This document shows, piece after piece, positions 13,801 through 15,256 of a DNA stretch of 64,000 nucleotides (within the stretch, counting starts at the first letter, position 1; the number at the start of each line of letters is the position of its first letter). Below the pieces are notes generated by a model. The model saw only the letters and a list, made by a program, of their open reading frames with translations, made no database searches and was not told the DNA's origin. The translations under genes were made by a program, and so were the position numbers. Source of the stretch: Sulfurovum sp. (GTDB lineage: Bacteria > Campylobacterota > Campylobacteria > Campylobacterales > Sulfurovaceae); assembly GCA_027049035.1 (NCBI GenBank), contig JALTVI010000091.1, positions 1 through 64,000 on the forward strand, in the 5' to 3' direction.

Positions 13801-14832
<1,032 letters not shown>

Positions 14833-14856
14833 TCTTTTTGACAATTGGCGCTCATC

Positions 14857-14914
14857 TTTGTAGGATGGGCGCAGTCACTTACTATTCGTAAGCTCCTTTG
14901 CCCAAACCTACAAA
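14857..14914. repeat. Structured hairpin repeat, family B, copy 1
   Basis: A compound hairpin: outer stem TTTGTAGG/CCTACAAA, second stem TGGGC/GCCCA, a conserved internal loop (CAGTCA on one side, CTCCTTT on the other), and apical stem CTTAC/GTAAG with a 5-nt loop. A diverged second copy begins 120 bp later. On the minus strand the internal loop reads AAAGGAG against GTGACTG and could form tandem G-A pairs. It is not followed by a T-run, so it does not look like an ilvC terminator. Confidence 0.8.
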
Positions 14915-14976
14915 TCTAAGCACAACTTATCAAAAATCTTCAATTAGTTATATCTTTTTTGCGATTTCACTGCATC

Positions 14977-15034
14977 TTTGGGTGATGGGCTCAGTCAGCT
15001 ACTACTCGTAGCCTCCTTCGCCCAAACACCCAAA
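14977..15034. repeat. Structured hairpin repeat, family B, copy 2
   Basis: Same architecture as copy 1 with compensatory changes: outer stem TTTGGGTG/CACCCAAA, second stem TGGGC/GCCCA, apical stem GCTAC/GTAGC. The internal loop (CAGTCA and CTCCTTC) is nearly unchanged. About 35 nt beyond each copy are also similar (AAATCTA...AAAAATCTT), so the duplicated unit is about 120 bp. Confidence 0.8.
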
Positions 15035-15060
15035 TCTACAGCAAACTCACAAAAAATCTT

Positions 15061-15200
15061 GAGTTTACATTATTTAACTTTTCTTCATTTGGAACCGGAA
15101 ATTCATTTCCGGCCCTGGGGAAGATACACCTAAAGGCATACACTTCGTTAAATCTTCGCTTCCAAAGGTGCTTTAAGTTTCACTTCAACCAAGCCATGCC
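15061..15200. other. Gene-free stretch with further hairpins
   Basis: No credible ORF. It has a near-perfect palindrome at 15095-15112 (CCGGAAAT, two bases, ATTTCCGG) and a looser pairing of CACCT (15127-15131) with AGGTG (15166-15170). Their role is unknown. Confidence 0.5.
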
Positions 15201-15203
15201 AAA

Positions 15204-15256
15204 TTTCCTCATTCCTCATTCCTCATTCCTCATTCCTCATTCCTCATTCCTCATTC
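15204..15256. repeat. Heptanucleotide tandem repeat (ATTCCTC)n
   Basis: Six perfect copies of ATTCCTC at 15211-15252, with a partial copy on each side. It ends 6 nt before a TATAAT box and occupies the place of the -35 region for the gene at 15295. Seven-base repeats are prone to slipped-strand copy change, which would alter promoter geometry. Confidence 0.9.

Follow-up and report, generated by a model that had tools for sequence, protein, structure and literature searches.

Tandem ERIC-like hairpin elements behind ilvC in Sulfurovum: covarying stems, a core found in several phyla and co-evolution with gene ends

Background

ERIC, the enterobacterial repeat on which ERIC-PCR typing is based, was recognised around 1990; to our knowledge, neither a mover nor a function has been settled for it. 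It is tabulated with a terminal inverted repeat with TA ends and a target duplication (PMC2229807), and its range has been reviewed as Enterobacteriaceae and Vibrionaceae (PMC10969869). No earlier report of ERIC-type elements outside the Gammaproteobacteria was found in the mostly open-access literature that was searched.

Other known systems bear a partial likeness to the elements described here. REP/REPIN sequences, which go with RAYT (Y1 transposase), are likewise small structured intergenic repeats. Integron attC sites are palindromic sites behind an ORF, and it is their bottom strand that folds; in contrast, no attC boxes are seen by eye in the present elements, which have no integron context and lie behind ordinary chromosomal genes. 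MITEs are recognised by terminal inverted repeats, target duplication and a lack of coding capacity.

Results

Two hairpins behind ilvC

The window is the whole stretch of DNA analysed, 64,000 nucleotides of Sulfurovum sp. (contig JALTVI010000091.1). The ilvC gene (ketol-acid reductoisomerase; NCBIfam NF004017, 564.7 bits) lies at 13804-14832 on the plus strand and is followed by two hairpins, arranged head-to-tail with a spacing of 120 bp. A single element is a four-stem hairpin of about 125 nt. From the outside in, it consists of stem P0, stem P1, a short stem, stems P2 and P3, an internal loop of CAGTCA and CTCCTT, and stem P4 with a tip of five bases.

Copy 1 spans 14822-14949 (plus strand, from stem coordinates) when the gene-end stem P0 is included; the match of covariance model R1, described below, covers 14829-14941 (119 bits). 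The 5' arm of P0, AACTAATT (14823-14830), is formed by the last codons and stop of ilvC and pairs with AATTAGTT (14942-14949); the 5' arm is backed by co-evolution of orthologous gene ends and by a permutation test. Inside it, P1 pairs TTTTTGA (14835-14841) with TCAAAAA (14930-14936), P2 pairs TTTGTAGG (14857-14864) with CCTACAAA (14907-14914), and P3 pairs TGGGC (14866-14870) with GCCCA (14900-14904). The conserved core, CAGTCA-P4-CTCCTT with CTTAC/GTAAG as P4, occupies 14872-14898; on the minus strand it reads AAGGAG...TGACTG, which is of the ERIC type and is predicted, by inference from the sequence, to form tandem G.A pairs.

Copy 2 (about 14955-15056, plus strand; R1 match 14949-15061, 129 bits) has the same plan, save that P0 is weak. 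P1 begins with TTTTTTG (14955-14961, paired with 15050-15056), P2 pairs TTTGGGTG (14977-14984) with CACCCAAA (15027-15034), and P3 begins with TGGGC (14986-14990, paired with 15020-15024). The core lies at 14992-15018, with GCTAC/GTAGC as P4 and the same minus-strand reading, AAGGAG...TGACTG. As DNA, both hairpins fold far better than shuffled sequences (z -5.7 to -7.5; 0/200 shuffles), and the core pattern is not expected to occur by chance within the window.

A preliminary description, made without database searches, had placed two compound hairpins between 14857 and 15034, and they are where it put them. It is also correct that three P2 pairs and two P4 pairs are altered on both arms between the copies, and that the TGGGC/GCCCA stem and the CAGTCA/CTCCTT loop are identical in both. 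It missed P1 and P0, which lie outside that range, as well as the reach into the coding end of ilvC and the ERIC-like nature of the elements.

Copies in the genus and their position

A loose pattern search revealed further copies in the window's genome, and six of these were used to build covariance model R1. R1 gives 15 matches at E<=1 in that genome; nine are strong (E below 1e-17), and a few of the 15 are reverse-strand or tandem echoes. It also finds 2-11 matches each in 11 of 12 further genomes of the genus, so that relatives are present in 12 of the 13 genomes examined. Among 249 Campylobacterota genomes, 33 have a match at E<=1e-4, representing 15 of 55 genera. Records named Sulfurovum carry very similar elements behind rplS and ilvC. 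An exact-pattern search of viral contigs gave no match.

Sulfurovum copies are found singly or head-to-tail, directly 3' of stop codons and in one orientation. Fifty-two of 57 genus copies examined start at the stop codon of a gene on the same strand; those that do not include second tandem copies. The genes directly upstream include ilvC, fusA, rplS, guaA, murF, tsf and grpE. NCBIfam supports the naming of ilvC, elongation factor G, guaA and a PorB-like subunit, all from long sequences. The names tsf, grpE, sucD, purB and purM rest on C-terminal fragments, each of which hits the expected family at a score below its whole-protein cut-off; murF and rplS are what we take two further genes to be from their sequence. 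One genome has a copy between grpE and dnaK, 26 nt upstream of the next start. No clear target duplication is seen at the Sulfurovum copies.

Covariation and co-evolution with gene ends

Four or more stems covary. Across 36 copies, 93.5% of pair cells are standard pairs, compared with 68.4% after shuffling (0/500 shuffles reach 93.5%), and sliding the partner reduces standard pairs to 31-43%. The covariation score is 0.617 against 0.177 for shuffled alignments, and double changes occur at 26 of 34 pairs. All but the first six copies were retrieved with a model that takes structure into account and so favours paired sequences, and the 36-copy alignment was fitted to that model; tests independent of the model's alignment agree with the result.

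The gene's last codons form part of the outermost stem, and the two evolve together; the pairing includes the stop codon itself. Mean complementarity between the gene end and the 3' flank beyond P1 is 6.54, compared with 4.63 when partners are permuted (maximum of 2000 permutations, 5.58), with most of the signal coming from about a third of copies. Among ilvC orthologues, one species has the gene end AAACTAACTAA paired with TTAGTTAGTTT, and a second has GACAAACTGA paired with TCAGTTTGTC. In rplS orthologues, the corresponding stem pairs are GAAAGTAA/TTACTTTC, GAAAATAA/TTATTTTC and GAAAATAG/CTATTTTC.

The preliminary description had claimed that the structure is under selection, and is not a chance palindrome or simple terminator. 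Selection cannot be proved from two copies alone; 36 copies suffice, and the claim is further supported by the co-evolving outer stems of the ilvC and rplS orthologues and by the occurrence of the same core in other phyla.

Which strand folds

In a single strand that folds, whether RNA or DNA, G.U (G.T) is better tolerated than A.C. The elements show an excess of A.C mismatches when read on the gene-sense strand. A strict count of isolated mismatches in a strand-symmetric self-alignment gives 71 A.C and 7 G.U. By region, with repeated contexts counted once, the A.C:G.U ratio is 42:11 in P1-P3 (p 2e-5), 15:7 in P0 and 46:0 in the short stem beside loop 2, where fixed positions may be included. 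The model-fitted alignment gives a milder ratio of 44:24, while control hairpins at the same loci give 51:50. The excess is also seen in Bacteroidota copies (29:12) and in enterobacterial ERIC (25:7), although the ERIC copies have no gene-orientation bias. The known mutation bias of a transcribed coding strand, C to T, would push the opposite way.

This asymmetry is observed directly; from it we infer that the AGGAG...TGACTG strand, opposite the gene, is the one selected to fold. The preliminary description had left open whether the site acts as RNA or DNA, and on that question the asymmetry favours the strand opposite the gene. RNAalifold on 57 sequences from many phyla gives -3.3 kcal/mol for the plus strand and -9.2 kcal/mol for the minus strand. 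On the AGGAG strand the apparent loop, GAAGGAG opposite TGACTGA, can be read from the sequence as G.A, A.G, A-T, G-C, G.A, A.G and G.T; this pairing is inferred.

Relationship to ERIC

The conserved core, which reads CAGTCA..CTCCTT on one strand and AGGAG..TGACTG on its complement, is the ERIC core, that of primers ERIC1R and ERIC2 as quoted in the literature; this criterion for membership is met. The elements share with ERIC/IRU/RU-1 the pattern AGGAG-NNTAC-loop-GTANN-TGACT, with the same internal loop between two stems, as well as the CGGTCA/CTCCCG covariation and the A.C excess on the same strand. Enterobacterial ERIC copies covary too. Both are long imperfect palindromes of similar length (ERIC, 127 bp) dispersed intergenically, and the ERIC criterion of a multi-copy, dispersed, intergenic imperfect palindrome of about 127 bp is met by the Sulfurovum elements.

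Other criteria are not met. The window copy does not conform to the full ERIC consensus around the core (AAGGCGG ... CCAACGCA), and the terminal repeat with TA ends is absent; Sulfurovum outer stems are gene-specific and have no constant end. In contrast to ERIC, the Sulfurovum copies have other outer stems that enter host codons, lack the TATACCC end, and lie strictly behind stop codons in one orientation, with nine strong copies in the window's genome. Because the outer consensus and terminal repeat were tested and not met, the window copies are classed as ERIC-like, in one superfamily with ERIC, and not as ERIC.

The elements are related to ERIC. Model R2 was built from 25 enterobacterial ERIC copies only, without any Sulfurovum sequence; R1 and R2 thus have no sequence in common. 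At E<=1e-3, R2 matches 11 of 249 Campylobacterota genomes from 9 genera (best E 1.9e-8), and six of these places coincide with R1 matches (two each in genomes G087 and G151, one each in G236 and G274). At Sulfurovum loci, R2 matches fall on the elements and on the AGGAG strand, but weakly (best 2.5e-4). Copy 1 of the window is matched at 14845-14927 on the minus strand with 18.3 bits (E 0.022), and a search of the window's own genome with R2 gives no match at E<=1e-3. The full ERIC consensus is better met in other Campylobacterota (locus L365, E 2e-8; L357, E 2.8e-6).

A scan of 84,980 species genomes found the core in Sulfurovum, other Campylobacterota, Bacteroidota, Bacillota (Lysinibacillus, Sporosarcina and Clostridia), enterobacteria and others; the elements therefore exceed the reviewed range of ERIC. 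The spread covers at least these groups; by our estimate, some 10 matches may be due to chance. Most matches have the ERIC-like flanking motifs CTGCGTTG and GCCTTG.

Relatives in other phyla and in rRNA operons

One Bacteroidota genome, G025, contains 147 near-identical copies of about 150 bp that have long inverted ends (AGTGTCTGTC/GACAGACACT) and are bordered by 4-bp direct repeats. The criteria for a MITE are met in this genome. Its copies share with the Sulfurovum elements the core, flanking motifs of the CGTTA/GCCT type, the folded strand and head-to-tail arrays; they differ in their inverted ends, direct repeats and high number of near-identical copies. Twenty left ends without a listed core were read in G025 in search of an autonomous partner, and none enclosed a transposase gene. 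In some G025 copies (L395-L414) the core is replaced by other hairpins, or further hairpins are nested.

Head-to-tail arrays with a unit of about element length occur in both G025 and Pantoea; at L348, L350 and L351, three or four ERIC-like units are almost identical in sequence. Two Pantoea arrays in one genome differ in their terminal stems (ATACCC/GGGTAT and ATCCCC/GGGGAT), which indicates that the end is kept as a stem more than as a sequence.

Elements are also found in rRNA and tRNA operons. At 15 such loci in Bacillota, enterobacteria and one other bacterium, the AGGAG strand is always the transcribed one; these elements lie in the 23S-5S spacer (L121, L124, L129, L140, L147, L153, L160, L163, L185 and L187), between tRNAs (L117, L139, L152 and L171) or before 16S (L142). 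The reverse holds in Campylobacterota, where the opposite strand is transcribed in copies within a 16S-23S spacer and within a 23S intervening sequence. The latter are in G274, where three 23S rRNA copies (L354-L356) carry an ERIC-like element inside an intervening sequence, in what we take to be the helix-45 region; this is the same element family, but inside an rRNA gene, and the host stem is an rRNA helix.

In the pan-bacterial set, the Sulfurovum orientation is favoured 33:6 between same-direction gene pairs; this set includes several Sulfurovum loci. The idea that orientation is set by transcription or replication was rejected as a general rule, since enterobacterial ERIC is unbiased (++4, --8) and both orientations are seen in rRNA operons. 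The gene-specific outer stems and the 23S copy had suggested that the element inserts into the loop of an existing terminator, but this is unsupported; in relatives that lack the element, matching arms are not seen.

Discussion

Proposed explanation

On balance, and by a modest margin, we favour the view that both copies behind ilvC are ERIC-type miniature non-autonomous mobile palindromes that took up their place at gene 3' ends long ago and are recognised when folded as single strands. In this view, the selected AGGAG strand would fold into one long rod, its "loops" being tandem G.A pairs with G-T/G-U wobbles on either side. Recognition of the folded strand, whether by a mobility factor or by one of the host, would depend on its shape and G.A core rather than on fixed terminal sequences; the strand is more likely to be DNA, with RNA possible. 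In Sulfurovum the copies would have occupied gene 3' ends for a long time, and the upstream mRNA would also carry them as a 3'-UTR hairpin.

Single-strand recognition, the preference for DNA over RNA and the mobility of the Sulfurovum lineage are all inferred, without transcript data behind them. No transposase or other factor was found for the Sulfurovum elements. Mobility is supported only by analogy, from its signs in relatives (the G025 copies and the Pantoea and Bacteroidota arrays); against it, Sulfurovum copies look fixed and lack the ERIC terminal repeat. The weak match of the window copy to the ERIC model also counts against this explanation. A purely selfish element would not be predicted to show persistent co-evolution of P0 with host codons. 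Strict 3'-end position and single orientation in Sulfurovum suggest a host role, for which no benefit has been shown.

A bolder reading is possible. The core, in which two stems of the AGGAG strand would enclose a pair of tandem G.A modules, may be a pan-bacterial recognition signal carried by miniature elements with differing ends; an unidentified, widely conserved factor would read the folded single strand, and the last codons of the host gene in Sulfurovum would have joined the folded unit. An ERIC core common to several phyla, with one strand apparently selected to fold and stems recruiting host codons, provides new handles on ERIC, namely a recognition motif and a strand, and opens many independent genomes to the search for a factor.

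Alternative explanations

The strongest alternative is a cis-acting hairpin in the 3' UTR of the sense mRNA, which would serve as a 3'-end stabiliser, processing site or terminator and be maintained because the upstream gene benefits from it. In its favour are the same-strand stop codon at the start of 52/57 genus copies, the co-evolving pairing of the coding end with the 3' UTR in P0, and the housekeeping nature of the upstream genes; in addition, ERIC RNA is reported to affect mRNA stability in Yersinia in an orientation-dependent manner (PMC2229807, citing De Gregorio 2005). However, A.C exceeds G.U on the sense strand, the opposite of what a sense RNA predicts; because this asymmetry points to the opposite strand, a simple 3'-UTR RNA on the sense strand is not the interpretation that fits best. 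There is also no consistent U-tract after the stem, the copy between grpE and dnaK is poorly placed for a terminator, ERIC copies show no orientation bias, and rRNA and tRNA operons contain some copies in both orientations. We consider this explanation unlikely.

Paired changes could also arise by templated (quasi-palindrome) mutation, in which one arm is copied from the other during replication without structural selection. Long imperfect palindromes are known substrates for templated correction, and the palindromy extends into flanking coding sequence. However, this process should erase internal loops, and here the loops are unpaired and nearly unchanged in almost every copy, across phyla; it is also strand-neutral and therefore cannot yield 42:11. 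There is very little to recommend it.

An antisense small RNA from the opposite strand of the gene 3' end is equally hard to sustain. It would fit folding of the AGGAG strand and the transcription of that strand at the 15 rRNA/tRNA operon loci, but the other strand is transcribed in Campylobacterota rRNA contexts and the family is found in all orientations.

Ordinary intrinsic terminators or chance palindromes would fit the position behind genes and the terminator-like hairpins present at the same place in some relatives without the element, but are practically ruled out by a core common to several phyla, covariation in 36 copies and the lack of a T-tract; a G+C-rich stem followed by a U-tract was not met in the element sequences.

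Among known families, a search of Rfam 15 gave none at the elements at gathering score; the best sub-threshold match is a microRNA family (E 0.088). The intrastrand triplex motif of PMC4666352 was rejected as a different sequence. A REP/RAYT system was likewise rejected: 19 of 20 Y1_Tnp loci read lack the element, so a RAYT gene flanked by the repeat is not observed, and the single element near a Y1_Tnp gene (L263) is weak.

Other repeats near the elements and the loci examined

At L249, L254, L256 and L257, Y1 transposase (RAYT-like) genes are flanked by inverted AGGGGTCAGGTGATAATGATAACT repeats, which are unrelated to the element. Another palindromic repeat family (GTCATCCCG...CGGGATCTTGA) lies downstream of elements at L006 and L231.

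At fusA and rplS, the inner module is of a short or a long type (the latter with GCTTTGTTCCGTT) within the same outer stem, as seen by comparing L087, L088, L089 and L102 with L003 and L008; inner hairpins at these genes look as if they might have been exchanged.

In the window, heptad repeats (TTCCTCA, TTACTCA, TTACCCG etc.) are present at 15205-15256, between the element and the next gene. They lie immediately 5' of a TATAAT-like -10 box and are possibly part of a promoter; similar 7-bp arrays are found at L003, L004, L006 and L008.
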